Below, piece by piece: positions 10,269 to 56,936 of a DNA stretch of 64,000 bases (position 1 is its first letter; the number at the start of each line of letters is the position of its first letter). Under the pieces are notes generated by a model. That model made no database searches and was not told the DNA's origin. It worked only from the letters and a program-made list of their open reading frames with translations. Source of the DNA: a virus; the IMG/VR virus record IMGVR_UViG_3300041411_000178, positions 124,001 through 188,000 of that record; one strand, given 5' to 3'. The position numbers and the translations under genes are program-made.

Positions 10269-13200
10269 ATGCATTTCCCTATTCTCCGTGAATATCAAGA
10301 GGACCTTGAAGGGCGTAATCCGGAAAACAAAATTACGGACGAGCCTAAGTCCACTCCAGCTGGTATCTGGACGCGGATCATTGTTCCTGACCATGCACCA
10401 TTCTTCACCAAGTCGTTGACGGTCAAAGCACCCAACGGCCAGCCTCTTGACCTGGGTGTGCATTACCAGATCTTCAGCATCATGCCACGTCTCACTGACC
10501 TGGCGGCTCAACCAGTGGCGTGTTTCATTGAGTTGCTGGATGAGAACATCACCGATGTACTGCTCGACTACCACGTTGTGGGTGAGTACTCGTTGATTGA
10601 CAACCGCATGCTGCAAATGATCTTTTCGGCTGTCAATGACGATCGTCCAGTGTTCTGGGAAAACCTCAAGAACAAACCGGTTGTCTTCCCACCGGACCTG
10701 CACAGCCATAGTCTGATCCGTACCACGATCTGCTGGCAGGACACGCTGGAAGTCATGGACCTCTACCTGGCCATGAAAGAGGCTAACGGTCGCGAGCCTA
10801 CCCAGATTCGTATCGACCACTTCTTCGACCTCCTGACGCACTACATCAACGTCTACAGCGATATGTTGACTGAGTTCTTGACCCGCCACATGCGGACCAA
10901 TAACGAACACGGTTTGACGGCAGCTCAGGTGCAGTTGGAAAAGGTGGACAACTTCGAAACCGCTAACAGTGGTAACGTGTTGCAGGCGCGTAGCGATATG
11001 CACCTGACCCCTCAAGGGTTGGAAACCATTATCGAGACCTTTGGTTTCGACAGCTCGCAATACCTGAAGACCGGTCTGTTGCCGATCTCGCGGTTTGGTA
11101 ACACCAACTTCATCCCTGCCAACATCGACGGTTCGTTTGAAGGCTTCGGTGGGTTCAGTGAGACAGCGGCTATCACGCTGGAGTCTGATGGTTCGATGGC
11201 GTACTTGTGGAACCGTTTCGATGGCCGTACCACGGGACTGTACTACTCAGTGCTGACGGATTCTGAAGACCAGGCCAACGGCAAGCTGTTGTACACGGGC
11301 TACAAGTACGTCCACCCTCGTATCGCTATCGATGGCGCTAACGTTAACCTGATTGCTCAAGGCAGCGGTGAAGATGTTATCCTGGTCGGTGACAACCAGA
11401 AAGAACTGTACTACATCGGGGTAACCAACGGGTCTCTGGACCCAGCGAAACACGTGTACTCGCCGATCAACTTGCGAGCTCTTGTTAGTGCCATCTACAA
11501 CAACCCCGGGCCAAGAGCGGTGAGCTTACTGTTCCCGTTCATCAACATTGCGTTGATTGGCCCGTGGATCTACATCTTCCACACGGCCTCTACGGGTACC
11601 CCTGTTGACTTCCCGCAACTTGGGATGGACATGCGGTTTAAGTTCTTCTACCGTGTAGCGTTGGCGGATGTAAAAGCACAGATCCCCGTTACGGCAACTC
11701 GTCAAAACATTACATTCCAGGATGCTGAAGGAGTGCAGTGGAATAACTCCCCGTACTTCCGCTGGTGTGATCGTGTAGTTAACGGTAGTGGTGATGTGGT
11801 TAAGTGCTTGTTCCCGTTTGTTCAGCCTCCTAACGGCCTGGTCAGTTTCTATCGGTCGGCAGTTACGTTGGTAGCAGAAAACCCATCGGTTCCGGGTCAG
11901 TATGCCATGAAGTTCTTGGGAGCGTTCTACGCTGCCTTGACAGGGGCTACGCTTAACCAGCAGTTCGACTACGTTCCGGAGTTGAATTACAACTTCAACC
12001 CGAACACGGGTGTCCTGTCGCTGACTTCCAAGACGAACATCTTCGCGGTTGACTTTTCCAAAAGCAACCCAAAGGCTGGCTACGAGCAGAACGGGATGAT
12101 GTACGCCTCGGTCTTCTCGTATGCTGGACAGGGTGGCAACGTCTTGGCGGATGGTCGCTACGCAGCATCTGGTTCGCCAGGTTACGCCGGTTTCCCACGA
12201 TTGGGCGTCGTGTCTGTTCCTCCGGGTTCTCACGACCGGCATACGACAATCTCCAGGTTGTGGGGTGTGGCCAAGGACTTCACCTCGAAAACTTGGTACG
12301 AGACCCTCACAAGTCCATTGGCGTCGTCGGTTAACCCACGCGCAGTTGCATACGTTCCTGCGGGTGAGTTCTTCGTAGCAGGCGGTCGTGACCAGCAGCT
12401 CTACTCGAAGCTGTTCTACAAGAACATCGCAGGTCGATTTGCGGTAAGGCCTGAGGTAACCAACCTCAACGTTGGGCAGGTGGTATCGCGTCCGTTGACC
12501 GGTGATATCCGCCCGGTGAATGCCTTGACGGGCATGGGATTGGCTACGGTGGTGTTCGCTACACCATATCTGAACCAGTTTGGAGTCGATGTAGGCGATG
12601 GGGCGTTCTGTATGAGCTCCCAAACCAAAAACTTCGACCGCACCAAAGTGGGAACGGCATGGCCAGCTAACACCAACAACCCGAACGATGTGATCCTGAT
12701 CGCCACCCACAACAATCGCATTGAACCGGATGGCACTGTGACCATTGTCCCCACTCTGGAGTTGTTGTATCCAGAGGCAATAGTCAATGCATTGTTCGCT
12801 CAGATCCAGTTCCCTGGAATGGCGACGCGATTCAAGATCATTTCGATCTGCGACCCAACCTACTCAGCCATGTCTGCTCGAGCGGGTTGGCTGCCAGTGT
12901 GTGTGTCGATTCAGTACGCACCTAACGGCGGCAGTGACATCAACACGCTTTACTCGACGTTCATGACTATCCAGCCGACTTATGCTGCCGTTAACGGTCG
13001 CTATCAGGTCACTGGGTTTACCGTGCTCGACATTGTTCACGGTGTGGGTCCGGGTACGGCTGTCTACGACCAGCAACGGATCTACGGCAGCACGGTGAAC
13101 TACGAGACGGCCTCGTCGATGCACTGTCCTATGCGGGTGAACTACCATCTAAATGGTAATAACCTTCAGGTCTACATGGGTTCGGGGATCATGGGCAACA

Positions 13201-13817
13201 CAGCGGGTGATGCCTTCTGTCTGGATTGGTTGTTCAGCTACAACGATCGTAACACTCGTCGTTGGAGTGGGAACACGATGCAACAAACCAGTACGTCGAC
13301 ACCTACCATCTGCAACACCCCTGATAACGGCATTAGTCGTTCCTTCGGGTGGGCTGACTCTACAGGGGGTGCGGCGCTGATTCAGCAAGGGCCGGTTAAC
13401 AATGCCGTCATCGGGTCGGTTTATCCGCAGACGGGTTGGGTGATCTTCTTCAAAACCGATATCAACGTGATCTTCAATGGTCGACCGTTTGTATTGCCGG
13501 CGGGTTCCATTGACTTGCGTGATATCGATCCGGCTCCACAGTTCAAAACGTTCTACATTTATGCGTTCTTGCGAGACGGTGTGGCGCAGTATGAGGTCAC
13601 CACTCTCAAGCGGCTGGAAAGTCAGTACCAGTTGTGGGTCGGTCGGGTTACCACGAATGCCAGTCAGATTCTTACTATTGACCGGTACAACGTGATCGCC
13701 ATGAACGGCCACCGCATCAGTGAGCTTAAACGCGGTAACTCCATTCCAGCTTCGTCTGGTCTGGTCAATGAGGAAGGACAAATCCCTTGGTTCTACCAGA
13801 GTGAAATCCTTCCTTAA
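10269..13817 (+). CDS. Tail fibre / receptor-binding-like protein 1, 1182 aa
   Basis: N-terminal module: APFF at residues 43-46 and FPPDLHSH at 140-147. A helical stretch follows, then a segment FIPANIDGSFEGFGGFSE that is clearly homologous to FLPPNISGSFEGMGQQTE of the next protein. The rest is beta-rich with many G, N, T and Y residues. The C-terminal domain has NGRPFVLPAGSIDLRDIDPA, then KTFYIYAFLRDG, and ends with IPASSGLVNEEGQIPWFYQS. This layout (attachment module, shaft, distal domain) fits phage fibres. phiKZ relatives carry comparable runs of paralogous tail-fibre genes near virion genes. Ribosome site AAGGA precedes the ATG. Confidence 0.75.
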   Translation: MHFPILREYQEDLEGRNPENKITDEPKSTPAGIWTRIIVPDHAPFFTKSLTVKAPNGQPLDLGVHYQIFSIMPRLTDLAAQPVACFIELLDENITDVLLDYHVVGEYSLIDNRMLQMIFSAVNDDRPVFWENLKNKPVVFPPDLHSHSLIRTTICWQDTLEVMDLYLAMKEANGREPTQIRIDHFFDLLTHYINVYSDMLTEFLTRHMRTNNEHGLTAAQVQLEKVDNFETANSGNVLQARSDMHLTPQGLETIIETFGFDSSQYLKTGLLPISRFGNTNFIPANIDGSFEGFGGFSETAAITLESDGSMAYLWNRFDGRTTGLYYSVLTDSEDQANGKLLYTGYKYVHPRIAIDGANVNLIAQGSGEDVILVGDNQKELYYIGVTNGSLDPAKHVYSPINLRALVSAIYNNPGPRAVSLLFPFINIALIGPWIYIFHTASTGTPVDFPQLGMDMRFKFFYRVALADVKAQIPVTATRQNITFQDAEGVQWNNSPYFRWCDRVVNGSGDVVKCLFPFVQPPNGLVSFYRSAVTLVAENPSVPGQYAMKFLGAFYAALTGATLNQQFDYVPELNYNFNPNTGVLSLTSKTNIFAVDFSKSNPKAGYEQNGMMYASVFSYAGQGGNVLADGRYAASGSPGYAGFPRLGVVSVPPGSHDRHTTISRLWGVAKDFTSKTWYETLTSPLASSVNPRAVAYVPAGEFFVAGGRDQQLYSKLFYKNIAGRFAVRPEVTNLNVGQVVSRPLTGDIRPVNALTGMGLATVVFATPYLNQFGVDVGDGAFCMSSQTKNFDRTKVGTAWPANTNNPNDVILIATHNNRIEPDGTVTIVPTLELLYPEAIVNALFAQIQFPGMATRFKIISICDPTYSAMSARAGWLPVCVSIQYAPNGGSDINTLYSTFMTIQPTYAAVNGRYQVTGFTVLDIVHGVGPGTAVYDQQRIYGSTVNYETASSMHCPMRVNYHLNGNNLQVYMGSGIMGNTAGDAFCLDWLFSYNDRNTRRWSGNTMQQTSTSTPTICNTPDNGISRSFGWADSTGGAALIQQGPVNNAVIGSVYPQTGWVIFFKTDINVIFNGRPFVLPAGSIDLRDIDPAPQFKTFYIYAFLRDGVAQYEVTTLKRLESQYQLWVGRVTTNASQILTIDRYNVIAMNGHRISELKRGNSIPASSGLVNEEGQIPWFYQSEILP

Positions 13818-13833
13818 CACTTAGGTCCGGATA

Positions 13834-13868
13834 GCCGGGGAGTATTCCTCCCTGGCGTCCTTTCTTTT
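13834..13868 (+). terminator. Possible intrinsic terminator or attenuator between fibre genes
   Basis: A 9-bp stem GCCGGGGAG / CTCCCTGGC (one G-T pair, loop TATTC) is followed by GTCCTTTCTTTTG. It lies between fibre genes 1 and 2, just before the ribosome site of gene 2, and could tune relative expression. Confidence 0.5.
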
Positions 13869-13884
13869 GAATAAGGTTAAAGTG

Positions 13885-16800
13885 ATGGATTCCATTCCGC
13901 TCTTAGTGTTTGACATCCGTGGTCTCAATCCTGTCAACACCATCCCCGGCGAAAAGATCCCACTCAAGGATAAGACCTTGAACTGGCTGATCCCTAACGG
14001 GGCCCCTTTCTTTAACGAACCCGGTCTGCTGGTGGTTCGTAACCAAGCGGGTGGTATTCTCACCCGTGACCGTGACTACTACGTTGAAGGTGAGTTCGTT
14101 CCTTTCTGCGAGATCACTGGTCGTTCCATTTGTACTTTTATCCGTGTCTCCGACGCCATCCTGGCTGCCAACGAATTTGTTACCGTTGACTACCAGAGTA
14201 TCGGTGCCTGGTTTGTACCCCGCAACAACCTCCAAGACTGGTTGGACCAGATGCACCGCGGCAAGACTCCGATTCCGTGGAGCAAGGTGTTCTTTGTTCC
14301 ACCAACCCTGCCGCCAGAGTACCACACTCACAACATCAAAACCGAAATCATGGACTGGTATGATTTCACCTACTTCTTCGCTCAGCTGGAAGGTATCCGC
14401 AGTACTCGGGATCCTGACTTCGATGACAAGTTGACTGCGGCAGTAGAAGACGCCTACAACAAGTTGTATGCAGCACGGGATACTCAACTCGGTATTCTGC
14501 AAGCACACGACAAGAACTACAACAACCCTCATGGTGCCGACAAGTTCGACATTGTGATGGGTAACCACGATAACTACCCTACCGCTACCCTTGCACAGGA
14601 CCTGGCAGGCGATAGGAGCGATCTTCTCAGTACACCCCATGGCGTCGTAGCCCTGGCGAAGAGTTACGTCCCAGACACCGATAAGGCGATGCTGGCGGGT
14701 ATCTTCCCCATCAGTTCGTACAGCGGTGAATCCTTTCTGCCACCGAACATTAGTGGTTCGTTTGAAGGGATGGGTCAACAGACCGAGTGTTCAGGCATCT
14801 GCCTGGAACCAAGCGGCTTGATGATGGTGCTGTCTAACCACAACGACGGCCGTACACGTGGTTTGTACTTCTCTGTTATTGAGAACTACAACCGAGACAA
14901 CATCCGGGTTACCTACAGCAACTACAAATATCGACCACCGGCTTTGACAGCGATCGGTATCGACGTAGACCGCATTATTGCGGGCAGCGGTAACAAGGTC
15001 ATCATGACGGGCGTGAACGGGACCAACGATTGGTTCATCTGTTTGACCAACGGTTCGTTTGATCCAGGTGGTCATGCTTACGTTCGCTGCAACATGAGTG
15101 CTATCACGGCGTTCTTTGGTTCGCCTTACGGCAACGCTCCAGTGTTTGGTCGCAATGACCAGGCCACTATTCACCACATGGGCACGTACCTCGTACTGGT
15201 GCAGGCTTATGTGGACAACGGTATTCCGAAGAGCCGGTTCTACCGCGTTCGTACCGCTGATGTCGTTAACGGCTTGGGCGTTACGTGGGAAGCTGTTCCG
15301 CTTACCTACCAGGACTGGGACGGCACTCAGTACAGCGGTGTGCTGGATTTTCAAGCACAAGCTGTCTTCAAGGATGGCAACAACAAGATCACTCGGTTTG
15401 GCCGGTTTACCTGCCAGCAGCCAATTGATTGGGTATCTATCCTGCGCCGCGATTTGAACTTGTCCTGGCCAGTGACAGGAGGAGGTGGCAACTACTACTT
15501 CCACACGCTTCAGTACTTCCACATGGTCTATTACGACCGCCCTGTGGATCCGCTGTTTGTTCACATCTTGCCAGGGATTACAGAGATGTACTATCTCTTC
15601 AATCCGGCTAACGGTGCAATGGCAAGGCAGGGCAAGTCACCGGCGATTACGCTCGATTTCTTGAACATGACCCCGGCCAATGAAGAATTGGGTATTCGTC
15701 AATATCGCCACGTCTATAACCAATTGGTCGCGTATCAACAACCGTCGACGGTGTTGCTCTCAACCGGTGAACTAGTGTCGACGTGTGTGTTTGAAGGTGT
15801 AGCGGAGTTCCCTTGCCGTATCAATACGCTCAAGATGCAAGGAATCACCAACGCTGAGCAGTGGATGTCCAGGATGATGGACAGCGACACCACAGCAGTG
15901 GCGCGTAATGTGCTTCACGTTCCGTCGGTGCAACCAGCGACAAGGAACGGTGTGTACACGTCCAGCATGTCGTTCGAAGCTGACGGTGAAGTGTTTGCTG
16001 CTGCTGACATGTCAACACCTGATCTGTTGCGTAAGGTGTTCTTCCGCAAGGTAAGCGGCGGGTATGCAATCCGAGATGGCGTTAACAACCTGACCCTGGG
16101 CCCGAACATGTACTCTCGCCCACTGACTACCGAGATCTATTCAACCAACTTAACCCGTGTCGACGGTATGTTGGGGATCACTGGTACGGGTGCAGAACTG
16201 GCAGCGGCTGGGGTGGATCAGGGTAGTGGTTCGGCTAGCTTCTGTGGTTACTCCAGTCTTTACCCAGCAAGCCAGCATTTACCACAGTGCCCAGAGCTGC
16301 GTGCACCGGCCGGCGGTAACGTTTTGGTCTCTTTCCCACGGACGTACACCAAGTCGCTGGATACGATCAACAAGGTGGCAACCTACTCGGCAACCAGCTT
16401 CTATGGTTTCCGTCAGAACGTCATCGACCAGATCAGAGCGTTAACCGGTAATGCCAGCAAGTGGTCATTCACGGTTAACCATCTGGGTGCGGAGAACGGT
16501 GGGATGTTCCGTGGTTTAAATCACTCGGTGGTCATGGTCAACTGGATTGTTGAGGGTACTGGGCGTTTCCGTTCTCGGGTGTTGATCGGCACTCCTGCTG
16601 TTGAGGCGCCGAATGCAAACCATCCGGGTGTGTACCTCATCACGGCCTTTAACTGGGTGTCTGCGCCTGCTGATGTCTCCACTTGCCCTTGGGCAGTGCT
16701 GCAAGGCTACGAGCAGTGGCAGAAATTGGACACCATCTACGTGGCTAAGCCGTTGTTGACAGCGTATCGCGATGGTAACTACATCAAGATCCTGATCACG

Positions 16801-17487
16801 TCCGGCTATGAGCATGTGGTGGCAACGTCTCGTCAAGTACCAGTCTGTCTCTTTGACCTGAACCTGGGTAACAGCCAGATTGAAAACCTGGCAGTAGGTT
16901 CGGTTGCTCGAGATCGAGGGGACCCAGCTGTTATGTGGCCGGGTGTGGGTATGACGGATCTCAGTGTCACAAACCAGGATGGTTTCGACGGCAAGTTGAT
17001 CACGCAGACGTTGTTCCCATACACCTACACGGGTGGTGGCGCGGCGATTCACCTGAAGACAGGGGTCGGTTACATTATCCCTACGTCGGTGTATCCGGAA
17101 ATTGGCTGGCTGCTGTTTATCCAGGACAACATCCGGATGATGATCAACGGGACGGCTTACTCTATCCAGGGTGGCACCATCGACCTGCGGGACATCGATC
17201 CAGCGCCTCAGAACAAAACGTTTTACATGTACGCAACAATCGAGGATGAAACTCCTAAGTATCTGTTGTCGTCAGTACAGCTGCGTAAGAGCGGTTCTCT
17301 GCTGCGGGTAGCGACCATCGTTACCAACGATAAACAGATCTTGACCATCACTCGTGAACAACCGTTTATGGTGGGCGATCTGCTGCTGAGCTATACCCGT
17401 GAAGGTGGGACGATTCCTATGTCCGCGGGCTACCCTCAGGATGAAGGCTTGTTTGTATTCCTTCATCAAGGTGAGTTGTTACCTTAA
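13885..17487 (+). CDS. Tail fibre / receptor-binding-like protein 2, 1200 aa
   Basis: A paralogue of the preceding 1182-residue protein. APFF is at residues 40-43 and the histidine motif (PPEYHTHN) near 144-150. The GSFEG segment and the C-terminal TIDLRDIDPAPQNKTFYMY domain also match, and the end IPMSAGYPQDEGLFVF corresponds to IPASSGLVNEEG. The start is the ATG at 13885 because AAGGT is eight bases upstream; the in-frame TTG at 13867 lies in the terminator T-run. Distal sequence has diverged strongly between the paralogues, as expected if they bind different receptors. Confidence 0.75.
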   Translation: MDSIPLLVFDIRGLNPVNTIPGEKIPLKDKTLNWLIPNGAPFFNEPGLLVVRNQAGGILTRDRDYYVEGEFVPFCEITGRSICTFIRVSDAILAANEFVTVDYQSIGAWFVPRNNLQDWLDQMHRGKTPIPWSKVFFVPPTLPPEYHTHNIKTEIMDWYDFTYFFAQLEGIRSTRDPDFDDKLTAAVEDAYNKLYAARDTQLGILQAHDKNYNNPHGADKFDIVMGNHDNYPTATLAQDLAGDRSDLLSTPHGVVALAKSYVPDTDKAMLAGIFPISSYSGESFLPPNISGSFEGMGQQTECSGICLEPSGLMMVLSNHNDGRTRGLYFSVIENYNRDNIRVTYSNYKYRPPALTAIGIDVDRIIAGSGNKVIMTGVNGTNDWFICLTNGSFDPGGHAYVRCNMSAITAFFGSPYGNAPVFGRNDQATIHHMGTYLVLVQAYVDNGIPKSRFYRVRTADVVNGLGVTWEAVPLTYQDWDGTQYSGVLDFQAQAVFKDGNNKITRFGRFTCQQPIDWVSILRRDLNLSWPVTGGGGNYYFHTLQYFHMVYYDRPVDPLFVHILPGITEMYYLFNPANGAMARQGKSPAITLDFLNMTPANEELGIRQYRHVYNQLVAYQQPSTVLLSTGELVSTCVFEGVAEFPCRINTLKMQGITNAEQWMSRMMDSDTTAVARNVLHVPSVQPATRNGVYTSSMSFEADGEVFAAADMSTPDLLRKVFFRKVSGGYAIRDGVNNLTLGPNMYSRPLTTEIYSTNLTRVDGMLGITGTGAELAAAGVDQGSGSASFCGYSSLYPASQHLPQCPELRAPAGGNVLVSFPRTYTKSLDTINKVATYSATSFYGFRQNVIDQIRALTGNASKWSFTVNHLGAENGGMFRGLNHSVVMVNWIVEGTGRFRSRVLIGTPAVEAPNANHPGVYLITAFNWVSAPADVSTCPWAVLQGYEQWQKLDTIYVAKPLLTAYRDGNYIKILITSGYEHVVATSRQVPVCLFDLNLGNSQIENLAVGSVARDRGDPAVMWPGVGMTDLSVTNQDGFDGKLITQTLFPYTYTGGGAAIHLKTGVGYIIPTSVYPEIGWLLFIQDNIRMMINGTAYSIQGGTIDLRDIDPAPQNKTFYMYATIEDETPKYLLSSVQLRKSGSLLRVATIVTNDKQILTITREQPFMVGDLLLSYTREGGTIPMSAGYPQDEGLFVFLHQGELLP

Positions 17488-21465: not shown

Positions 21466-21518
21466 ACTTGATGTCCTATTCTGTAGACCCTTTCAATTTT
21501 CTTAAAAAGAATTCTGTT

Positions 21519-23984
21519 ATGCTACTTAAATTAATTCTAGAGAACTATGTTCCGCTCTTGAGTAGCAATATTCATAAAGTGGAACTTGATACCGAACATA
21601 TGATCAACCTCTTCATCTCCCTGAACGGTGTAGGTAAGAGTTCGATCCTCAAGGAAATGAATCCACTTCCTCCAGAAAACGGCAACTACAAAAACGGCCG
21701 TAAGTATGTGCAGTGGCGAGTGGGTAGCAAAGTGTACACCATGGACTCGTATACCGGTATTGGTAACGGCCACAGTTTCAAGATCAACGACGGGGACGAA
21801 CTCAACACCAACGGTACGTTCAGCGTACAGAAAGAGTTGTGTGACACTCACTTCGGTTTGGACAACGGGTTGGTTAAAGTCATCAGCGGTATTCGTATTG
21901 CAGATCGACTGTCGGCTATGTCTGCTACACGTCGTAAAGATGTGTTGATGCAGATCTACCCGAACAACACCGATTACGCGTTGGGTGTGTACGGTCGTTT
22001 GAAAACTGCTCGCAATGAATTGAAGGCAGCGATCAAGAACCAGATCGGTCGTTACACCGAAGAGAACCGTAAACTCTCTTACATCAACGAGTGTGGTGTA
22101 GAAGAGTTGGAGCGTCGGGTTAAAGGCGTTGAGGAGGAACTGAAACAGTCGCTCCTACTGCGGGGTAGTCTGGAGTCGGTTAAACTCGATCCGCGCGTGC
22201 AGGCGAAGAAGCTGGAACTTGATCAGCTTTTGGATCAGCTGCTTGCGAATAAGCTCAGTGGCGTGTGGCAGAGCAAACGGGAATACATCGACACCATTGA
22301 ACAGTCTCGTCGTATTCTCGAAGGTTATCGTGATCAGGCCAATGTGTTGCAAGGTGTGATCAGCGAGCACGCGGGTATGTTGGAAGGCTTGGAAGAATTC
22401 CTCAAAGACCCCGATGCCTTCAAGATGCAAACCAAGCACGTTAAGGGAGACATTGCCGAGACATTGATCAAGCTGGAAGTAATCGAACAGGGCTTAAAGC
22501 AATACCCTATCTTTGACGACCCAGAGAGCCCGCTAGAGGGCTTGCCGCAGATCATCCCGGCACTGATGCAGTTTCTTAACCGCGTCACTCCTGCGAGCAC
22601 CAAGGAGCTTACAGGCAACCAGTACAAAGCTTACCAAGTCCGTATGGAGAAGGTGGGTGTTGAACTGAAGAGCTTTACCAATGACCTGTCCAACATGCAG
22701 CATCAATTGTCGCATTATGAGCAGGCTGAAACGGTTGAGTGTCCTGACTGTGCGCATGAGTTCAAGTTGGGGATGACCCCTCAGAAACTGGCGAACCTTA
22801 AATCCAACATTGAGTACTCGATCAAGAAGATTGAGACGTTGGAAAAGGAACGAGATGAACTCCAGGATAAATTGGACAACGACTCGGAATGGTTTGTTTC
22901 GATGAATCAGTTGTTCACCTTTGTCCGTGAGAACAGTCACGTCAGAATCCTGCCTGAGCTGATCAAGCAGTTCGAAGTGGGTCGTTGGGCTACTCACCGT
23001 CTCCAGAACGCTTTGGAGCTCGTAGCACGCAAGTGGGAACTCCAGGGCTACCGTGACACCCTGGCAGAAGAAGAAAAGCTCCTGGATGCACGTATCGCGC
23101 TCCTGGACCGTAATAAGGTGTTGGACGTGGCTATCTACGTTAGCACCACTGAAAAAGAGCTCGTGGAGGTTAACAACAAGATCCTCTTTTACCGAGCCAA
23201 AATTGACGCCCTCAGTAATACCTTGCGGGGCATTCAAACCTATGGGGAAGACTTAAAGCGATTGGAGCAATTGCGGTTCGAGATCTTGCAAGGATTGGAG
23301 TGCGAGGGGAAGGTAAGTTTGCGGGGTGCGGTGGACCATCGCATCAGTGAATTGACCTCGGACAAAGAACACTACATGACCTCGATCATCAAGAGCAAAT
23401 CCCTGACAGCTGTCGTGCAATCCATCTCGGCTGACATCGATCGCTTGAAGCGTCGGTTGACTATCGTTGAAGTGCACATGGACGGTCTGTGCCCTAACAA
23501 GGGTTTGATCGGCAAGTTAATGAGTGACTTCATTACTGCTATCTGTGGCAACATGAATGCGGTGGTTAACAAAATCTGGAATACCCCACTGTACATCAAA
23601 CCGTGCAGCAAAGAGAACGGTGATCTGACGTATCGCTTTCCTGTGGTCAAGGGTGAGAAAGACCCTACGCCGGACGTGTCGGATTGCAGTGGCGGCGAAA
23701 CTGATATTTTAGATTGGGCATTTCGCTTTGTGTTACTGGGGTACCTCAAGTTTCCACTTCCTTTGATTATGGATGAAGTGGGCCCATTCCTGGATGAAAT
23801 CAAACGCGGTAGGTTCTTTAACTTTGTGGAGGAATACACACAGAGCAACGATGCCCGCCAACTGTTCTTGGTGTCCCATTACTTCAATCAACTCGGGGTC
23901 TTCAGAGATCCTAACATTATCGCCTTGCGTTACGAAGGCCTTACCCTGCCGGGCGAGGTTAACCAGCACTCAATAGTAATTTAA
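21519..23984 (+). CDS. Rad50/SbcC-like zinc-hook ATPase (recombination endonuclease subunit)
   Basis: 821 residues from the ATG beginning MLLKLILENYVPLLS. An upstream ATG at 21471 would add 16 residues not typical of the family. Walker A is SLNGVGKSS at residues 34-42, followed by long heptad-rich coiled coils. The zinc hook CPDC is at 408-411 in the middle of the coil, the ABC signature is DCSGGE at 722-727, and Walker B is LIMDE with Asp752-Glu753. All catalytic elements are present, so it should be an active ATPase that tethers and processes DNA ends with an Mre11/SbcD nuclease. That partner is not in the window. The ribosome site is weak (AAAAAGA). Confidence 0.9.
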   Translation: MLLKLILENYVPLLSSNIHKVELDTEHMINLFISLNGVGKSSILKEMNPLPPENGNYKNGRKYVQWRVGSKVYTMDSYTGIGNGHSFKINDGDELNTNGTFSVQKELCDTHFGLDNGLVKVISGIRIADRLSAMSATRRKDVLMQIYPNNTDYALGVYGRLKTARNELKAAIKNQIGRYTEENRKLSYINECGVEELERRVKGVEEELKQSLLLRGSLESVKLDPRVQAKKLELDQLLDQLLANKLSGVWQSKREYIDTIEQSRRILEGYRDQANVLQGVISEHAGMLEGLEEFLKDPDAFKMQTKHVKGDIAETLIKLEVIEQGLKQYPIFDDPESPLEGLPQIIPALMQFLNRVTPASTKELTGNQYKAYQVRMEKVGVELKSFTNDLSNMQHQLSHYEQAETVECPDCAHEFKLGMTPQKLANLKSNIEYSIKKIETLEKERDELQDKLDNDSEWFVSMNQLFTFVRENSHVRILPELIKQFEVGRWATHRLQNALELVARKWELQGYRDTLAEEEKLLDARIALLDRNKVLDVAIYVSTTEKELVEVNNKILFYRAKIDALSNTLRGIQTYGEDLKRLEQLRFEILQGLECEGKVSLRGAVDHRISELTSDKEHYMTSIIKSKSLTAVVQSISADIDRLKRRLTIVEVHMDGLCPNKGLIGKLMSDFITAICGNMNAVVNKIWNTPLYIKPCSKENGDLTYRFPVVKGEKDPTPDVSDCSGGETDILDWAFRFVLLGYLKFPLPLIMDEVGPFLDEIKRGRFFNFVEEYTQSNDARQLFLVSHYFNQLGVFRDPNIIALRYEGLTLPGEVNQHSIVI

Positions 23985-26048: not shown

Positions 26049-26342
26049 ATGCCAGAAATTGTGGCCATGCTTCTGGGCTTAGGTTGCTTTTTCTTTTTCC
26101 TTGAGATGACAACAGGTCCGTGGAAGTGGCTGGATCGTTTAACCGGTTGGGATGATCATCCTGACGAGAAAGAAATCAACGCGATCTGCTTGCGCCTATT
26201 ACTGGAGCAAGAGGATCTTAGTATCAACATTCAGAACCGTGTCGTCTGTAACGAATGTAAACGCGAGAGCTGTGGGTTTTGTACCAACGGCCGTGTTATT
26301 CGTCAGGCACAGGAACTGCTCGATAAGAGGAGCGAGTTATGA
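26049..26342 (+). CDS. Small membrane-anchored Cys-rich protein, 97 aa
   Basis: The N-terminal hydrophobic helix (IVAMLLGLGCFFFFLEM) precedes a charged soluble part with CNECKRESCGFC, a C-x2-C-x4-C-x2-C array that could bind zinc. It has the same plan as its upstream neighbour. The stop overlaps the ligase start (ATGA), so ligase translation is likely coupled to it. Confidence 0.65.
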   Translation: MPEIVAMLLGLGCFFFFLEMTTGPWKWLDRLTGWDDHPDEKEINAICLRLLLEQEDLSINIQNRVVCNECKRESCGFCTNGRVIRQAQELLDKRSEL

Positions 26343-28282
26343 AAGTCCCCAGTATCTTTGAGGAGATGAGAACTCTCCAAGAGGAGATCACTCGCCTCAA
26401 CACCGAGTTCCACCAGAACGACAAGGAATTGATCCCCAACGCTGAGTTCGATCAAAAGCAGTTGCGGTTTGATGAACTGTGCGAACTCTACCCTGACATT
26501 GCCAGGAGCCTGGTTACCGACAACGCCCCTGTCCCCATGGCTGCTCCTACTGCCGGGCTGGACCTGGTGGAATTCAAGGAACCCATGCTCAGCCTCAAAA
26601 AGGCCACGAGTATTGAGGCCCTGGACAAATGGCTGGCCAAACTCCCAGCGGACGTCACAGTTATCTGGGAGTTAAAGCTGGATGGCTTGGCGTTGGACTT
26701 GTTGTATGAGTTCCGTCAATTGGTACGGATGTGTACACGTCGGGATGGGTTGTTTGGTGAAGATGTAACTCACTCGATTAACCTGTTCAACAACATACCC
26801 CTGACGCTGCCTCCAGGCTACCCTGACGAGTTTTCTATTCGGGGTGAGGGGATATTGCCGTTTGTTGCATTCGAGGCCTACAACGAGGCTGTAGAGAAGC
26901 CTATGGTGACTCCTCGTAATGCGGCGAGTGGTTGGGTGCGTACCAGTCGGGGTAATCAGAACCCAGAAGCTGTGGGTAAGCTGCGCTTTATTGCATACGG
27001 CTCCAGTGAACGGTTTGATGCCAAGACCTACATGGACCAGCGGAAGATGTTTCGGGAAGCTGGGTTTGAAGTATCACCCGTGCTTTCGTTAGAACAGCTC
27101 AAGAGCGGTGAACGCGACGACGTCTTACCAACTGACGGTGTAGTGGGTAAGGTCAACAACTTCGAAACCCAGGAAGAGTTGGGTGCAACCAACAAGTTTC
27201 CTAACTGGGGGATTGCCTACAAGTATCCGGACGAAGAAGTCGAAGCGGTCTACGACAGAACCATCTGGAAAACGGGCAAGACCGGTCGGGTTAACCCAAC
27301 GATCCTCTACCATCCGGTTAAAGTAGGTGGTGTGACCTGTAGTCGAGCCAGCATCGACAACTATCACCAATTCATGGAGCTGGGGCTGCGTGAGGACTGC
27401 ACCCTGGCGGTTCGTCGTAACAACGATGTTATCCCACGGGTTCACCGCGTTATTGAGCCTGGCACGGGTGAGCGGGTTAAGGCCCCAGAAGAATGCCCAA
27501 GCTGTGGAAGCGTGCTTCGACTCAAGACCAGTGATGCAAGCGCCTTTCTATATTGCGACAACGTTACTGGTTGCAAGAGTCAGTTGTTGAATCGCTGCTT
27601 GGCTTTTGTTAGTCGTGGGGCGCTGGACATCGACGGGTTGGGCCCGGTGGTATTGGCCGAGCTTATTGATGACGGCACCATCGAATACCCGGCCGATATC
27701 CTCTACTTGAATCCTGCGGAAATCTCACCTAGGACCTGGGCGAACATCATGGAGGTTACCTCGGTTCCGTTGCATAAAGCAATCATGGCCATGGGGTTAC
27801 CTGGTGTTGACGTTATCCGCGCTAAGAAGTTGGCCGTGGCTGTTAATGAAGCGGGCGTCAAGATCTGGCCGCCAGAACTGACACATTGGTTGGGTAACAA
27901 AGACAACCTGAAAAAGATCAGGGGTATCGGCGACAAGCTAGCGACGCCTATCGCTAAAGCGCTGGAAACCTCGGCTATCCAGCTTAACGCTAACCGACTG
28001 TTTAAACAGGTTCAACCGTTCTACAGGGAGGATAAAACTGAACGGAAGATCTGTATCACCGGTGACGTGGGACTTCCACGCGAAAGCTTAAAGGAACTCC
28101 TGGAATTGGCGGGTATTGAATTGGCGGATAGTTTCACCAAAGACTGCCAGTTACTTCTCGTGGGGGAGAAACCAGGTGAAAAGAAACTGTTAAAAGCAAC
28201 CGAGCTGGACATACCTATGGTAACTATCGCCAGGGTTTCCAGTATTGAAGAGTTGATCGATCAGATCAACAACCATAACTAA
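26339..28282 (+). CDS. ligA: NAD+-dependent DNA ligase
   Basis: 647 residues, close to bacterial LigA length. The adenylation motif is ELKLDGLALD with nucleophile Lys113. Motif III is IRGEG (167-171), NAASG is at 194-198, motif IV is DGVVGK (266-271), and motif V is AYKYP. An OB-fold follows (RASIDNYHQF), then a four-cysteine zinc finger (C386, C389, C406, C412), helix-hairpin-helix repeats (RGIGDKLATPIAKAL), and a short degenerate BRCT-like end (KICITGDVGLPRESLKELLE). It seals nicks using NAD+, probably in phage replication and repair. The N-terminal Ia domain is shortened and divergent, so NAD+ binding should be checked. It starts in an ATGA overlap. Confidence 0.95.
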   Translation: MKVPSIFEEMRTLQEEITRLNTEFHQNDKELIPNAEFDQKQLRFDELCELYPDIARSLVTDNAPVPMAAPTAGLDLVEFKEPMLSLKKATSIEALDKWLAKLPADVTVIWELKLDGLALDLLYEFRQLVRMCTRRDGLFGEDVTHSINLFNNIPLTLPPGYPDEFSIRGEGILPFVAFEAYNEAVEKPMVTPRNAASGWVRTSRGNQNPEAVGKLRFIAYGSSERFDAKTYMDQRKMFREAGFEVSPVLSLEQLKSGERDDVLPTDGVVGKVNNFETQEELGATNKFPNWGIAYKYPDEEVEAVYDRTIWKTGKTGRVNPTILYHPVKVGGVTCSRASIDNYHQFMELGLREDCTLAVRRNNDVIPRVHRVIEPGTGERVKAPEECPSCGSVLRLKTSDASAFLYCDNVTGCKSQLLNRCLAFVSRGALDIDGLGPVVLAELIDDGTIEYPADILYLNPAEISPRTWANIMEVTSVPLHKAIMAMGLPGVDVIRAKKLAVAVNEAGVKIWPPELTHWLGNKDNLKKIRGIGDKLATPIAKALETSAIQLNANRLFKQVQPFYREDKTERKICITGDVGLPRESLKELLELAGIELADSFTKDCQLLLVGEKPGEKKLLKATELDIPMVTIARVSSIEELIDQINNHN

Positions 28283-29816: not shown

Positions 29817-30299
29817 ATGAGCAAAAAAGAACCCCCTATTACCTACAAGGTGCACACGGACGGCAGTGCTCTGGGTAACCCAGGCCCTGGAGGTTACGGG
29901 ATTGTAGCGAGATGCGGAGACGAGGTTGTCACACTCTCGAAAGGCTTTTTCCGGACCACCAACAACCGTATGGAGTTGCTTGCGGTAATCGTTGCGCTGG
30001 AGGAGTTTGCTAAACCGGGTACTGTCTTTGAAATCACGACAGACTCCATGTACGTGATCAACTCGGCCACCAAGTGGTTGAACGGTTGGGCGCGTAGCAA
30101 TTGGATTGCCTGGAAGACGCAGGAGCCTATTAAGAACCAAGACCTGTGGAAACGTCTTCAGCCGCTGCTGAAAGCCAACAAGGTTAAGTTCTTTTGGGTT
30201 CGTGGCCATACGGGTGTTGTGGATAACGAAATGGCGGATAAGCTGGCAGTAGCGGCGGCTAACAATCCGACTGACACTGATGAAGGTTTCCTGGGGTAA
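29817..30299 (+). CDS. rnhA: Ribonuclease HI
   Basis: 160 residues, the usual RNase HI length. The metal-binding and catalytic set is complete: Asp15 (HTDGS), Glu53 (NRMEL), Asp76 (TTDSMYV) and Asp141, plus His131 in the flexible loop (RGHTGVVDNEMAD). The W-rich handle region (WLNGWARSNWIAWK) is present. It cleaves RNA in RNA-DNA hybrids, for example primers and R-loops. It is the first gene of the unit 29817-32626, which contains three predicted phosphodiesterases or nucleases. Confidence 0.95.
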   Translation: MSKKEPPITYKVHTDGSALGNPGPGGYGIVARCGDEVVTLSKGFFRTTNNRMELLAVIVALEEFAKPGTVFEITTDSMYVINSATKWLNGWARSNWIAWKTQEPIKNQDLWKRLQPLLKANKVKFFWVRGHTGVVDNEMADKLAVAAANNPTDTDEGFLG

Positions 30300-30304: not shown

Positions 30305-30523
30305 ATGCAGTCACTAACGTCTATTTACAAGATTGAGCCCGGGACTGTACTGCCGGTGTTTCTGCTAAAGATTCTTCGATCTTCCAGGGTTGAGCCAGCA
30401 TTTATGGCAGCAAAGGTAATTGGACTGGGTACTGAGCGCGATGCGATCGAAAGGATCCATCACCGCATGCAGCGAAACCATATCCAGAGTGTTCAGGTCT
30501 ATCGATTCATGGTGGTCAAATGA
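30305..30523 (+). CDS. Small basic protein, 72 aa
   Basis: The product (MQSLTSIYKIEPGTVLPVFL...) has an amphipathic middle and a C-terminus rich in H, R and Q (RIHHRMQRNHIQSVQVY). It overlaps the next gene by ATGA. Nucleic-acid binding is possible from charge alone; no family is recognised. Confidence 0.55.
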   Translation: MQSLTSIYKIEPGTVLPVFLLKILRSSRVEPAFMAAKVIGLGTERDAIERIHHRMQRNHIQSVQVYRFMVVK

Positions 30524-30747
30524 GCAACGAATGTTACATCTGCAAGAAAATGCTGGACGATGATGAGGGTGAGGAGTTCTTCCCTTATGAACTTCCCCAC
30601 CTACCGAACGAGAACCTGATGGTGTGTTCGGTCTGTGAAGATTCTGACGAGCACAAAAGTAACTTGGATTCTGATCGTTGCAATCGAGCGGCAGAAGAAA
30701 GCTACCAGGAATGGTGTGCTGACAACAACAACGATGACGATGACTAA
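30520..30747 (+). CDS. Small zinc-ribbon-like acidic protein, 75 aa
   Basis: CYICKK near the N-terminus and CSVCED 32 residues later form a two-CxxC zinc-ribbon pattern. The C-terminus is strongly acidic (ADNNNDDDD). Starts in an ATGA overlap with the basic upstream protein. The opposite charges of the two products would allow them to interact, but this is speculation. Confidence 0.6.
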   Translation: MSNECYICKKMLDDDEGEEFFPYELPHLPNENLMVCSVCEDSDEHKSNLDSDRCNRAAEESYQEWCADNNNDDDD

Positions 30748-30773: not shown

Positions 30774-31697
30774 ATGGAATCTAAGGGCATGGAGAACAAA
30801 CCAGTCTTGTGTATTTACCACAAAGACTGTCTGGACGGTATTGGCGCTGCATGGGTGGTGTGGCGCCACTTCAATAACCTCGGTATTGACATCGAGTTGG
30901 TGGCCGCCGCCTACAACGACAAGATGCCAGACGTTACCGGGAAGATGGTTTACGTGGTGGATTTCAGTTATTCACGTGAGCTCATGGTGTCGATGCTGGA
31001 GCGTGCGCATGATGTGGTGGTACTGGATCACCACACCTCTGCGAAGAAAAACCTCGAAGGTCTCTTTGTTGTAGACGAGAGTCACTCGGGGGCAATGCTG
31101 GCGTGGAAGTATTTCAACAGTGATATTCCACCACCAGAAGGTTTGCTGTATGTTGAAGACCGCGATCTGTGGCAGTTCAAATACCCGAACACCAATTACT
31201 GGGTAACCGCGGCTTTCTCCTATCCGTTCAACGTGCAGCAGTTCGATGCACTGATGAACTCCGATCCACTGGACCTCATCGCTGAAGGTCGTATCCTGTT
31301 GCGTAAGCATGAACAGGACACCACTCGCGTCTCGATGAATGCCCGCATGATGAAGTGCCTGGGCTACGACGTTCCTGTGGTCAACGCCAACATCTTCTTT
31401 GCGTCTGACCTGGGTGACATGCTCTCCAAGGACTATCCGTTCGCACTGGTGTACATGGACCTACCTAAAGGCCGCAAGTATTCCATTCGCTGCCAGAAAG
31501 GCCGTATGGACGTTTCCAAGATCGCTGAGTACTTCGGTGGTGGCGGTCATGCCGATGCGTCGGGTTTCACGATCCGTTACGACGACAAGCGTTTCAAGCG
31601 TTGCCATGAAGTACTCGACTATTCACTACGTGACAAGGTCATGGCTTTCGCAATGCATCCGGTCATGGCTCTGAAGATGCTGCTAGGGAAGAAGTAA
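30774..31697 (+). CDS. DHH/DHHA1-family phosphoesterase
   Basis: 307 residues. DHH domain motifs: YHKDCLDGIGAA (residues 15-26), VDFSYS with Asp63, and VLDHHTSA with Asp85-His86-His87. The C-terminal DHHA1 motif GGGGHADASG is at 255-264. These Mn2+-binding motifs are typical of NrnA/RecJ-type enzymes that hydrolyse short linear oligonucleotides or (p)Ap(A)-type substrates. The protein is too short for RecJ and nearer NrnA in size. The start ATG at 30774 follows GGGG; an inner ATG at 30789 lacks spacing. Its place three genes upstream of a 2H phosphoesterase suggests a shared nucleotide-signal or RNA-turnover role. Confidence 0.85.
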   Translation: MESKGMENKPVLCIYHKDCLDGIGAAWVVWRHFNNLGIDIELVAAAYNDKMPDVTGKMVYVVDFSYSRELMVSMLERAHDVVVLDHHTSAKKNLEGLFVVDESHSGAMLAWKYFNSDIPPPEGLLYVEDRDLWQFKYPNTNYWVTAAFSYPFNVQQFDALMNSDPLDLIAEGRILLRKHEQDTTRVSMNARMMKCLGYDVPVVNANIFFASDLGDMLSKDYPFALVYMDLPKGRKYSIRCQKGRMDVSKIAEYFGGGGHADASGFTIRYDDKRFKRCHEVLDYSLRDKVMAFAMHPVMALKMLLGKK

Positions 31698-32003: not shown

Positions 32004-32171
32004 ATGGAAAGCGAATTCCTGTTCCACGTATACGCTGACGGTTATGGCTTCGGTACACCGTTTCATCCTGAACAGTATCTCATTCAGGAGCAAGCCTGCC
32101 ATCGTTTGAGGGCGCGCATTAAATCGGGTAATACCCTGGTGCGTGTGGAAGTCAAACGCAAGCAGGACTAA
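32004..32171 (+). CDS. Small protein, 55 aa
   Basis: The product begins MESEFLFHVYADGYGFGTPF and ends in a basic tail (VRVEVKRKQD). The ATG at 32004 is favoured over 31995 because AGAG at 31991-31994 is nine bases upstream. It fills the gap between neighbours with only five bases to the 2H gene. Too short for a family call. Confidence 0.55.
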   Translation: MESEFLFHVYADGYGFGTPFHPEQYLIQEQACHRLRARIKSGNTLVRVEVKRKQD

Positions 32172-32176: not shown

Positions 32177-32626
32177 ATGGAATTGGACTACAGTTATGTC
32201 AGCGTGCAGCTCAAACAAGAGTTTCAGGCTGAGATCATTTCGAAGTTGATTCTGGCAGGTATTGCACCAGAGTCGAAACACGAACTGCATTGCACCATGG
32301 TTTATGATGAGCGGGATATCGCCGCTCCGTTGTGTAACTTGGTCCCAGCGTCTCAGGAATTCAGGGCGAACATTATTTCTCTGGATACCTTGGGCGATGG
32401 TCTGGTGTTCCACTTTACCAGTACCGACATGCTGGAAGAGTTCCGGCGTTTGAAGGAAGGCGGTTACGTCCACTCCTTTGGAACGCCGTTGTTCCACATG
32501 TCGTTGAAGTATGACTTCGACAAGTATGAAGTCCTGGCTCTGAACAATCTGTTCGGTGATTGGGGTGGACGTACGTTGGTCTTCCATAACGAGCAGTTCG
32601 GCGTTAAGAAACCCAAGAAGAAATGA
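32177..32626 (+). CDS. 2H phosphoesterase, candidate Acb1-like anti-CBASS enzyme
   Basis: 149 residues with the two histidine motifs of the 2H (LigT-like) superfamily: HCT at residues 38-40 (ELHCTMVYDE) and HMS at 107-109 (LFHMSLKYDF). The spacing between histidines is 69 residues, the same as I recall for T4 Acb1 (H44 and H113, about 150 residues). Acb1 opens 3',5'-linked cyclic oligonucleotides that CBASS uses as alarm signals. Overall similarity beyond the motifs cannot be judged by eye. Other 2H roles (RNA ligase-like, cyclic phosphodiesterase on tRNA ends) are possible. Last gene of its unit, ahead of a strong terminator. Confidence 0.72.
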   Translation: MELDYSYVSVQLKQEFQAEIISKLILAGIAPESKHELHCTMVYDERDIAAPLCNLVPASQEFRANIISLDTLGDGLVFHFTSTDMLEEFRRLKEGGYVHSFGTPLFHMSLKYDFDKYEVLALNNLFGDWGGRTLVFHNEQFGVKKPKKK

Positions 32627-32633: not shown

Positions 32634-32684
32634 CTACTCCTACTCCCTTTGCGGGGAGTAGGAGTAGGTTACCTTTATTTTTTT
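32634..32684 (+). terminator. Strong intrinsic terminator
   Basis: A 14-bp perfect stem CTACTCCTACTCCC / GGGAGTAGGAGTAG with loop TTTGCG is followed by GTTACCTTTATTTTTTT. Confidence 0.85.
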
Positions 32685-33016: not shown

Positions 33017-34153
33017 ATGAACACCAAGAACGAACAAGTTGCTAACACCGCTTCGATGATGGTGAGCGTTGTTACCAAACTTCGTACTGAAGGTGCGCCG
33101 GAACCCGTACAACTGGCCTATGCCAAAACGGTGATGCTGGATCAGGATCAAGTCGCTACTCGCGATCGGCAACCTGTACTGAACCTGGTGAACAACCAGC
33201 TCGGCACCAAATGGTCCTTCAACCAAATCAAGAAGGCCGGCGACTTCAACCCTGAGCCAGCCCCAGTCCGGGTAACCGAACTGAACGGCACCGCCCAGGT
33301 CAATGTTGCAGGCCAGCCGAATGAAGCAACCTTCGTAGAGAAGAATGCGAACTCGGCTGGCGACCACGCTCACGCTGAACCGGTCAGCCAGTCGACCACC
33401 ACTGCTCCTGACCACAACGGTCAAACCTCCTCCAACGCAAACGAAAAGGACACCAACAACATGAACACTCAAGCCAACAACGCTGCTGACATGAACAAAT
33501 CCGTACAGGGTTTCGAAGTCGCCATGATCGCCGTCGGCCGCACCACTCCAGAACAGCGCGCTGCTGCCTGGATCGCTTTCCTGGCTACCGCTCCGGAGCT
33601 GTCGGCCAAGTGGGATGCATTCCTCCTGGCTGCTGAACAGGGCAAGACCTTCGACGAGAACTTCGTGGTCTTCAGCGAAGGCCTGGGTGAAGAAGAAGGC
33701 GGTACTGCTATCCACGGCTTCATGCGCTGGTGTGCTGCCAACCAACCGAAAGACGACGGCCACTACGCTGACAAGTCCCGTTTCAGCCTGATGGGTGAAC
33801 GTGACGAAGGCATCCGCACCAGCTGGATTGCAGCCGGTAGCGCAGTGATCGGCGGCGGTATGGAAATGGTTGCTCGTGGCGGCCTGACCACTGGTTCGGC
33901 AATCGGCACTGTAGTCGGCGGCATCGGCGCGTTCTTCGCCGGTGAGCAAGTTGACGATCACGTCGAAAGCCAATTCGGTCGTTACGTGGTCGGTGGCATG
34001 ATCGGTCTGGCTCTGGGCGCCGGTGGTTCTGCTCTGGGTCGCAACCTGATGCCTGGCAGCAACCTGGTATCCCTGGGTGGCGGCGAGCAAACGCCTGTGG
34101 AAGTTCTGCCAGCTCCAGTGCATCACGTACCGGCCGGTATGTTCGGCATGTAA
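33017..34153 (+). CDS. Glycine-zipper membrane protein, 378 aa, probably highly expressed
   Basis: The N-terminal 75 residues are helical. A disordered linker rich in N, T, H and A follows (residues 76-150). A soluble helical domain around 155-265 includes CxANQPKDDG. The C-terminus has glycine-zipper hydrophobic segments, WIAAGSAVIGGGMEMVARGG, GSAIGTVVGGIGAFFAG and VVGGMIGLALGAGGSALG, the pattern of membrane-inserting or pore-like proteins. C-ending codons dominate. It sits behind an exact TATATTAC promoter. An internal ATG at residue 149 with AAAAGGA upstream could give a shorter product. Possible roles include inner-membrane modification early in infection. Confidence 0.7.
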   Translation: MNTKNEQVANTASMMVSVVTKLRTEGAPEPVQLAYAKTVMLDQDQVATRDRQPVLNLVNNQLGTKWSFNQIKKAGDFNPEPAPVRVTELNGTAQVNVAGQPNEATFVEKNANSAGDHAHAEPVSQSTTTAPDHNGQTSSNANEKDTNNMNTQANNAADMNKSVQGFEVAMIAVGRTTPEQRAAAWIAFLATAPELSAKWDAFLLAAEQGKTFDENFVVFSEGLGEEEGGTAIHGFMRWCAANQPKDDGHYADKSRFSLMGERDEGIRTSWIAAGSAVIGGGMEMVARGGLTTGSAIGTVVGGIGAFFAGEQVDDHVESQFGRYVVGGMIGLALGAGGSALGRNLMPGSNLVSLGGGEQTPVEVLPAPVHHVPAGMFGM

Positions 34154-55355: not shown

Positions 55356-55952
55356 ATGGCAGCTAAGACGCACATGGCGTTGTTTGTTGAACGGTTTGTT
55401 AAGTTCAACAAGAATCGCTACGCCGGCGACGCCGATTATCTCGCGCTGTTCGAAGGCCTGAAAGAAACCGACCTCCAACTCGGCACTCCTGTCGATGCTG
55501 GTGACGGCACCTTCAACATGACCATCGCTTCGGCTGGTCGCAACTTCCGCTGTGATCCACTGCAATCGTGGACCCCGGCCGACGCTTCGAAGACTTTGGG
55601 GTTGTATACCCTGAAGAACGTTACACCGCTGGCCGACATCAACGAGCTGGAAGCGCAGACCGAAGCCGGTTTGTATTCCTACACTGATGGCGCCGACACC
55701 CTCGTTGGTGTGGTCATTGCCTCCGACATCGCCGACGGCGGTGAAGAAGCTGCAATCGAAGCGATCGTGAACGCTGGTCTGGTTTACGCCATTCCAACGA
55801 TCACCACCACCGAGGGTGACACCTTCACCCAGCTCATCGGCAGCACGTTCAAGGGTAACCTCGAATGGGTTAAAGGTGCTGTACCGGTCAAGGTGATTCC
55901 ACCTACTGACTACGGCCTCCTGACCGTTGATCAAGACGCACCCGAAGTTTAA
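55356..55952 (+). CDS. Probable virion or accessory protein with C-terminal IPPTDYG motif, 198 aa
   Basis: GGAG about eight bases before the ATG. The protein has C-ending codons like GroEL and the fibre genes, suggesting abundance. It is acidic and beta-rich, with DAGDGTFNMTIASAGRNFRC near residue 47. The end VIPPTDYGLLTVDQD matches the IPxTYYGxL repeats that end the 758-residue virion protein at 1620. This suggests that both are processed or bound by the same partner. Follows GroEL, so it could be a folding client; that is speculation. Confidence 0.65.
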   Translation: MAAKTHMALFVERFVKFNKNRYAGDADYLALFEGLKETDLQLGTPVDAGDGTFNMTIASAGRNFRCDPLQSWTPADASKTLGLYTLKNVTPLADINELEAQTEAGLYSYTDGADTLVGVVIASDIADGGEEAAIEAIVNAGLVYAIPTITTTEGDTFTQLIGSTFKGNLEWVKGAVPVKVIPPTDYGLLTVDQDAPEV

Positions 55953-55975
55953 CCCGCTGGGTTGAGCTGCTCTAG

Positions 55976-56014
55976 TAAAGCCTACCGTTGGGTCATTCCC
56001 GCGGTAGGCTTTAT
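55976..56014 (+). terminator. Hairpin terminator
   Basis: A 12-bp stem TAAAGCCTACCG / CGGTAGGCTTTA, with a 14-base loop. Confidence 0.75.
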
Positions 56015-56104
56015 GGCTGCTTTACGCCAGTTAGAATTTAATGTTACACCCACGACTATTATCTACACCCGATAAAAGGTCATTTGTATTAAGGAGTTTT
56101 ATCC

Positions 56105-56677
56105 ATGACCGCACAATTAAAAGCTGCAATTACAGCACCGGCTGTAATGGACGAAGAAGAGTACGCACTGGTATGTCGCGCACTGGAACCGTCCTTTGTT
56201 GACCATTTCCATAGCCTGGGGGTTATGAAGAATGTACTGCGTGAGATGGTGTATGGTGTTGATCACCTCACTGACATGCTCAGGATGCCAGAGTGCCCAG
56301 TTGGCAAGACGCTGGTAACCATGGATCTCGAACACTACAAACTGGAATCGTTCTTCCTGTTTGACCAGTTGTTCCGGGCCACGAACAATGACTGCTGGAA
56401 GATTTCACTGCCGACTCCAACAGTCAAGAAAGAACTCGATGAATTCTTTAACCGGAGTTACATCGAAACGTTCCATTTCATTATGGGACGCATGGGAGTG
56501 GAAGAGCTGATGTTCAAGGTCGACCATGAGAGGTACTCGATCGAGTTCAACGAGATCATACCGGACAGCAAGTTGTATATCTTCCACTTCAATAACCTGG
56601 ACACACGTCAGGGAATTAACCTGCCGTTTGCCCGCCGTCGTACGCAACATTCCTTGAAGGTCAAGCGAAATGATTGA
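56105..56677 (+). CDS. Paralogous family Y, member 1, 190 aa
   Basis: The product (MTAQLKAAITAPAVMDEEEY...) shares with the 56937 product the segment FVDHF followed by REMVYGVDHLTDMLRMP (there FVDTF and QEFVYGIDCLTEISRSS). Both continue with a Phe/Leu-rich helix (ESFFLFDQLFRA here, FNELRWLTRD there), then a second globular part ending LPFARRRT / LPFLRTRT. Upstream sequence GACTATTATCTACACCC is promoter-like but poor. Unknown function. Confidence 0.65.
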   Translation: MTAQLKAAITAPAVMDEEEYALVCRALEPSFVDHFHSLGVMKNVLREMVYGVDHLTDMLRMPECPVGKTLVTMDLEHYKLESFFLFDQLFRATNNDCWKISLPTPTVKKELDEFFNRSYIETFHFIMGRMGVEELMFKVDHERYSIEFNEIIPDSKLYIFHFNNLDTRQGINLPFARRRTQHSLKVKRND

Positions 56678-56840
56678 TCCAAAAGATTTGCTCGACAAAG
56701 ACGATGATTGGGTCGCTAGTATGGTGGCAGACCCTATCCGTAAACAACAGCTTAAACGTCGCCGTAGGTTCTACACTGTGCTTGGCATTTCTTGCATTAT
56801 TGCCGTGTTTATTGGCGCAGTGATTGGCTGGAAGGTGTAG
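56670..56840 (+). CDS. Small tail-anchored membrane protein, 56 aa
   Basis: Overlaps the upstream gene by eight bases. The product starts MIDPKDLLDKDDDWVASMVA, has a basic stretch (KQQLKRRRRF) and ends in a single C-terminal helix (TVLGISCIIAVFIGAVIGWK). The positive-inside rule places the N-terminus in the cytosol. The next promoter starts 15 bases later. Confidence 0.62.
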   Translation: MIDPKDLLDKDDDWVASMVADPIRKQQLKRRRRFYTVLGISCIIAVFIGAVIGWKV

Positions 56841-56856
56841 ATTTAAGTTAAGGAGG

Positions 56857-56882: not shown

Positions 56883-56936
56883 AACAAAGACGTTCATTAA
56901 TTGTGGTCTTCCACGTTAAGTTAATAGGGAAACATC

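Follow-up and report, generated by a model that had tools for sequence, protein, structure and literature searches.

The viral DNA analysed here (the window, 64,000 nucleotides at positions 124001-188000 of a 224,004-bp virus record) carries a gene for an Acb1-family 2H phosphoesterase, which probably acts as a metal-independent phosphodiesterase destroying cyclic oligonucleotide signals, those of CBASS and possibly of related systems, in the host cytoplasm. An earlier sequence-only reading had proposed an Acb1-like 2H phosphoesterase, and Pfam, profile-to-PDB and predicted-structure searches independently agree with it on family, fold and catalytic motifs. The further proposal, an anti-CBASS role, is a candidate function, and it is weakened by changes at three of the five named positions at which T4 Acb1 contacts the nucleobase; because these are unconserved, the substrate range cannot be assumed. 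The gene product is best read as an Acb1-family 2H phosphodiesterase that degrades signals and the specificity of which has possibly shifted.

Gene, motifs and conservation

The 149-residue open reading frame, which begins 5 nt past the end of the preceding one, is a real and conserved gene with the following features.

32177..32626, + strand: Acb1-family 2H phosphoesterase gene, 149 aa (Pfam PF23474, profile against PDB, AlphaFold2/Foldseek)
32164..32167, + strand: Shine-Dalgarno-like AGGA, 9 nt 5' of the ATG, read from the sequence
32288..32296, + strand: catalytic motif 1, H38-C-T40, with H38 and T40 unchanged in all 28 aligned members, T4 Acb1 among them
32390..32392, + strand: Leu72 codon, aligned to T4 Trp74 (L-INS-i alignment of 37 proteins and pairwise BLASTP)
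32495..32503, + strand: catalytic motif 2, H107-M-S109 (Thr in T4), with H107 invariant in the 28 members
32634..32667, + strand: intrinsic-terminator-like hairpin with a 15-bp stem, then a T-rich tract (scan and fold)

The closest relatives in IMG/VR, which are 69-80% identical, start at the same residue as the window protein, and the start is MELDYSYVSVQLK or nearly so in its close relatives. Purifying selection is strong, with dN of about 0.12-0.15 against dS of about 1.0-1.4 for the four nearest relatives, so that nonsynonymous change amounts to roughly a tenth of synonymous change. Downstream, the hairpin (fold -36.1 kcal/mol, z -6.9) is terminator-like and would close the transcript 3' of the gene.

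The reading frame bears out the reported product of 149 residues with HCT at 38-40 and HMS at 107-109. The likeness to T4 Acb1 in length and histidine spacing also holds: T4 57B, identified as Acb1, is 152 aa long in its genome record, and its H44-S-T46 and H113-I-T115 are 69 residues apart, as are H38 and H107 here. The catalytic tetrad of T4 Acb1 (H44, T46, H113, T115; PMC9117128) corresponds to H38, T40, H107 and S109, with a conservative Thr to Ser replacement, and all four residues are invariant in a 17-row alignment. At position 109, the five T4-like rows of the 28-member alignment have Thr, and the 23 members that are not T4-like all have Ser. Two Hx[ST] motifs 60-80 residues apart arise in about 2% of shuffles of the window protein, so the motif pair alone is weak evidence, and the family assignment was decided by homology instead.

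Family assignment and predicted fold

The Pfam Acb1 family (PF23474) matches residues 7-120 with 28.5 bits, a narrow pass of the gathering cut-off of 27, and it is matched by 28 of the 28 members of the larger alignment. In searches of the PDB, a profile of 13 relatives without any T4-like row retrieved 9Q2G (1.7e-11) and 7T26 (3.2e-10), while the 28-row profile gave 7T26 at 3.6e-27, partly by construction since it holds five T4-like rows, followed by 9Q2G at 1.3e-14 and the LigT-like 1IUH at 0.92. Pairwise, the window protein is 18% identical to T4 Acb1 (BLASTP E 0.06). A phmmer search of the PDB with the single protein was set aside, as it returned designer PPR repeat artefacts and chance matches, and none of the repeat stretches passed by itself.

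The AlphaFold2 model, built from 28 sequences, has a mean pLDDT of 90.6 and a pTM of 0.84. The comparison with Acb1 and LigT-like folds that the sequence-only reading had proposed placed Acb1 structures at the head: Foldseek against the PDB returned three chains of the BCSR5 phosphodiesterase (best E 3.4e-7, TM 0.73), then two FBB1 Acb1 chains (2e-5 and 8e-5), and, below these Acb1-named ranks 1-5, Arabidopsis CPDase (8e-4) and E. coli LigT (1.2e-2). The structure match solely to LigT or CPDase proteins, which would have spoken against Acb1, did not arise, and neither sequence profiles nor structure gave LigT or CPDase as best match. LigT and plant CPDase share the superfamily fold and the twin Hx[ST] motifs with the window protein, but differ in their weaker structure matches (8e-4, 1e-2) and in having no significant sequence-profile match. 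The TM-scores are close (FBB1 Acb1 0.60 vs plant CPDase 0.58), and the modelled fold alone would not separate Acb1 from CPDase, a distinction that the sequence profiles do make.

The best solved-structure match, the phosphodiesterase of Burkholderia phage BCSR5 (PDB 9Q2G/9Q2Y, TM 0.73-0.74), was deposited as anti-CBASS protein Acb1, and our search found no paper on these structures. It is 18-19% identical to the window protein, from which it differs by an HxT in motif 2 and by a Trp that aligns with T4 Trp74 or lies adjacent to it; its Burkholderia-phage relatives likewise have Trp and HxT in the 37-protein alignment. In a viral structure library, the top Foldseek match was the 'Anti-CBASS protein Acb1' of phage RisingSun (TM 0.89), which is about 40% identical and lies on a nearby tree branch. 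The Acb1 names of such jumbo-phage proteins (RisingSun, Miami, JA29, pEt-SU and fHe-Yen9-04 in UniProt/BFVD) are automatic only; UniProt already names the homologues from RisingSun, Miami and JA29 in this way.

Substrate pocket

T4 Acb1 stacks on the bases through Y12, W74, F107 and W147, contacts adenine N6 through E141, and covers the ligand with a lid formed by residues 145-152 (PMC9117128). Two of these five positions are kept in the window protein, as Y7 (Y12) and F101 (F107) in an L-INS-i alignment of 37 proteins, while W74 is replaced by L72 and E141 by G142, and W147 is absent, a Lys-rich tail taking its place. We therefore do not file the window protein as a T4-type Acb1; the base-contacting residues of T4 do not define the whole of PF23474. 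The Trp74 column holds Leu or Met in all sampled members of the EL/OBP/Miami/Asteriusvirus group, Phe in the JA11/Yoloswag branch, and Trp in most T4-like proteins and in two relatives from Burkholderia and Achromobacter phages. This column shifts by one with the alignment, to Gly73 in the 28-member alignment and Leu72 in L-INS-i and BLASTP, and Leu72 is preferred because Phe occupies this column in a sister branch of the 37-protein alignment. The C-terminus aligns poorly, which makes the equivalence of E141 the least certain. In the tree, which has long deep branches and some unsafe joins, the T4-like clade is separate from the group with the window protein.

The sequence-only reading was thus right on the catalytic motifs and overlooked that the substrate grip of T4 Acb1 (Trp74, Glu141 and the Trp147 lid) is mostly altered. 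The apparently remodelled pocket is an addition to it, and suggests that the set of substrates may differ from that of T4.

Phage type and gene neighbourhood

As had been supposed, the virus is a jumbo phage, and it moreover carries a chimallin gene at 55530-57479 of the virus record (phrog_4795, 4.6e-119). This gene was missed in the window genome with phiKZ chimallin as a single-sequence query and detected with the PHROG profile. Judged by this marker, the virus is an EL-like nucleus-forming phage (Chimalliviridae). It shares with Pseudomonas phage EL the order NAD-dependent DNA ligase, hypothetical gene, RNase H, DHH phosphoesterase and Acb1, from which the window differs by a few small extra genes, and gp126 of EL, the homologue of the window protein, shares 48-49% identity with it. 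The T4 gene, in contrast, lies beside 57A/ipI. Two neighbours serve as reference.

29817..30299, + strand: RNase HI (NCBIfam RNase HI, over cut-off), in the same order in EL; a synteny anchor outside the mechanism
30774..31697, + strand: DHH-DHHA1 phosphoesterase, upstream of the Acb1 gene (phrog_4771, 4.5e-87; Pfam DHH and DHHA1)

The DHH-DHHA1 gene neighbours the Acb1 gene in EL and in most close relatives. Enzymes of the DHH type can break down nanoRNA or cyclic dinucleotides. A two-gene pathway of ring opening followed by DHH clean-up was rejected, as the DHH gene was detected in 10 of the 17 sampled records having the Acb1 gene, was undetected in the other seven, and occurs in two records lacking Acb1. 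The adjacency is lineage synteny, and the DHH enzyme a possible, not a required or proven, partner. The NAD-dependent DNA ligase and RNase H surroundings point to nucleic-acid metabolism, with no obvious anti-defence island, which counts against the proposed function.

Several other genes of the window were noted. Directly downstream, 33017-34153 encodes a protein of 378 aa that has no Pfam or PHROG match and the C-terminus of which is Gly-rich and membrane-like. Similar proteins also follow the Acb1 gene in three other records, one of which, a close relative, also keeps a zinc-ribbon-like 75-aa protein with CxxC pairs (30520-30747). An SbcC-like nuclease subunit lies at 21468-23984 and the NAD-dependent DNA ligase at 26339-28282. 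At 10269-17487, two adjacent proteins of about 1200 aa, both matching phrog_3573 (1e-140 to 1e-162), appear to be tandem copies of a large tail or virion protein.

Distribution among jumbo phages

PF23474 was found in EL, RisingSun, Vibrio phage 2 TSL-2019, Miami, JA11, ZPAH34, OBP and seven IMG/VR relatives, and was undetected in phiKZ, 201phi2-1, Goslar, PCH45, SPN3US and Noxifer. Chimallin was found in most of the phages surveyed for PF23474, and not in SPN3US or JA11, where a divergent chimallin could escape the phrog_4795 profile. By these profile matches, the Acb1-family enzyme is patchy within nucleus-forming phages, as expected of counter-defence genes. The 13 diverse members, once aligned, proved too divergent to serve in a locus scan, for which closer subsets were used; with the patterns used, no relatives were found in GTDB genome contigs, and PADLOC returned no hits.

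In four giant phages of the Asteriusvirus/Mimasvirus type, the Acb1-family gene clusters with genes for nicotinamide phosphoribosyltransferase and Sir2, and in three of the four with an annotated Nudix hydrolase, a set that looks like a counter-defence island against NAD and nucleotide signals.

Proposed function

In the function that we favour, an EL-like nucleus-forming phage would make an enzyme against cyclic oligonucleotide alarm signals in the host cytoplasm. If its chemistry is that of T4/FBB1 Acb1, the pairs H38/T40 and H107/S109 would help the ribose 2'-OH to attack the 3'-5' bond, and a 2',3'-cyclic phosphate intermediate would then be hydrolysed to a linear product with a 3'-phosphate. 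With the signal opened, the effectors would not be switched on. The phage nucleus blocks DNA-targeting defences, and not nucleotide signals in the cytoplasm. CBASS is a sensible target, since type III-C CBASS protects more than 10^5-fold against a phage that is phiKZ-like and forms a nucleus (PMC10889362). Tad1 of phiKZ likewise counters nucleotide signals in a nucleus-forming phage (PMC13282480), but is an unrelated protein that acts as a sequestering sponge and not as a degrading enzyme. A bolder proposal, tentative and in our view rather unlikely, is that a clade across nucleus-forming and other jumbo phages rebuilt the base pocket, losing Trp74, the lid and, in most members, Glu141, and cleaves signals beyond the reach of T4 Acb1, such as cA4/cA6 of type III CRISPR.

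Alternative functions

Iyer et al. (2021, PMC7824862) assigned the 2H enzymes of jumbo phages a role in RNA repair, with 2',3'-cyclic phosphates as substrates, and the window protein could accordingly be a 2',3'-cyclic phosphodiesterase acting in the healing of RNA ends, or in the hydrolysis of ADP-ribose cyclic phosphate, and not a nuclease of immune signals. Such an enzyme would have the same superfamily fold, as the place of Arabidopsis CPDase as next structural match illustrates, and the loss of the base-stacking Trp and the lid would suit a less specific ligand. The protein also matches PHROG 755 (1.8e-16), a family labelled 'RNA ligase', but the genome record of T4 57B bears the same product name although that protein is Acb1, so the label is no argument against Acb1. 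Profiles, moreover, prefer Acb1 over LigT-like proteins by many orders of magnitude. No match to RNA_ligase, RtcB, Rnl1-type ligase or PNK3P was found in the genome in searches with working positive controls (T4 for Rnl1 and PNK3P), on a contig that may be incomplete and where a ligase of high divergence could have escaped, and no tRNA genes were found in it either. As these RNA-repair and tRNA genes are undetected, the reading as an RNA-repair enzyme is weakened, and we consider it quite unlikely.

An immune-signal nuclease with its specificity moved from that of T4 Acb1 to type III CRISPR signals, which are larger cyclic oligoadenylates, or to another nucleotide signal, would account for a coherent change across the clade: all sampled members of the EL/OBP/Asteriusvirus branches have Leu or Met in place of Trp74 (Phe in JA11/Yoloswag), Glu141 has mostly been exchanged, and there is no Trp147; nucleus-forming phages are also exposed to RNA-targeting type III CRISPR (PMC13282480). 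Against this stand the kept equivalents of Tyr12 and Phe107 and the small pocket of the known Acb1, with T4 Acb1 accepting only di- and trinucleotides (PMC9117128), and such a shift seems unlikely. That the gene encodes a pseudoenzyme, or a structural or virion protein that merely retains the fold, is highly improbable: several homologues are annotated 'putative structural protein', and an Acb1-like 2H domain is apparently fused to the Pam3 portal (PDB 8HDS, C-terminal part, 3.9e-9), but the catalytic H/T/H are invariant across 28 members and the gene is under purifying selection. The signal-degrading Acb1-family phosphodiesterase is the reading that we retain as the most likely.

Prior knowledge and significance

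Acb1 was discovered in 2022, together with 281 BLASTP relatives, and nine further proteins proved active on testing; the branch of the window protein probably lies outside this set, since its pairwise BLAST to T4 reaches only E 0.06. Iyer et al. (2021, PMC7824862) had already pointed to 2H and DHH phosphoesterases of jumbo phages as enzymes of counter-signalling or repair. A 2026 review names Tad1 as the sole anti-defence protein so far described in jumbo phages (PMC13282480), although large Schizotequatroviruses have an annotated Acb1, which was detected in their virions (PMC12028318). In the literature surveyed, which covered few subscription papers, we found no functional test of Acb1 from a nucleus-forming phage or of the branch of the window protein.

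The window gene is a good anti-CBASS candidate. If the enzyme is active, EL-like, RisingSun, OBP and Miami phages would have an enzymatic answer to CBASS that phiKZ apparently does not, and this would help to predict which phages succeed on strains carrying CBASS. The remodelled pocket would, in addition, inform the evolution of Acb1 specificity.
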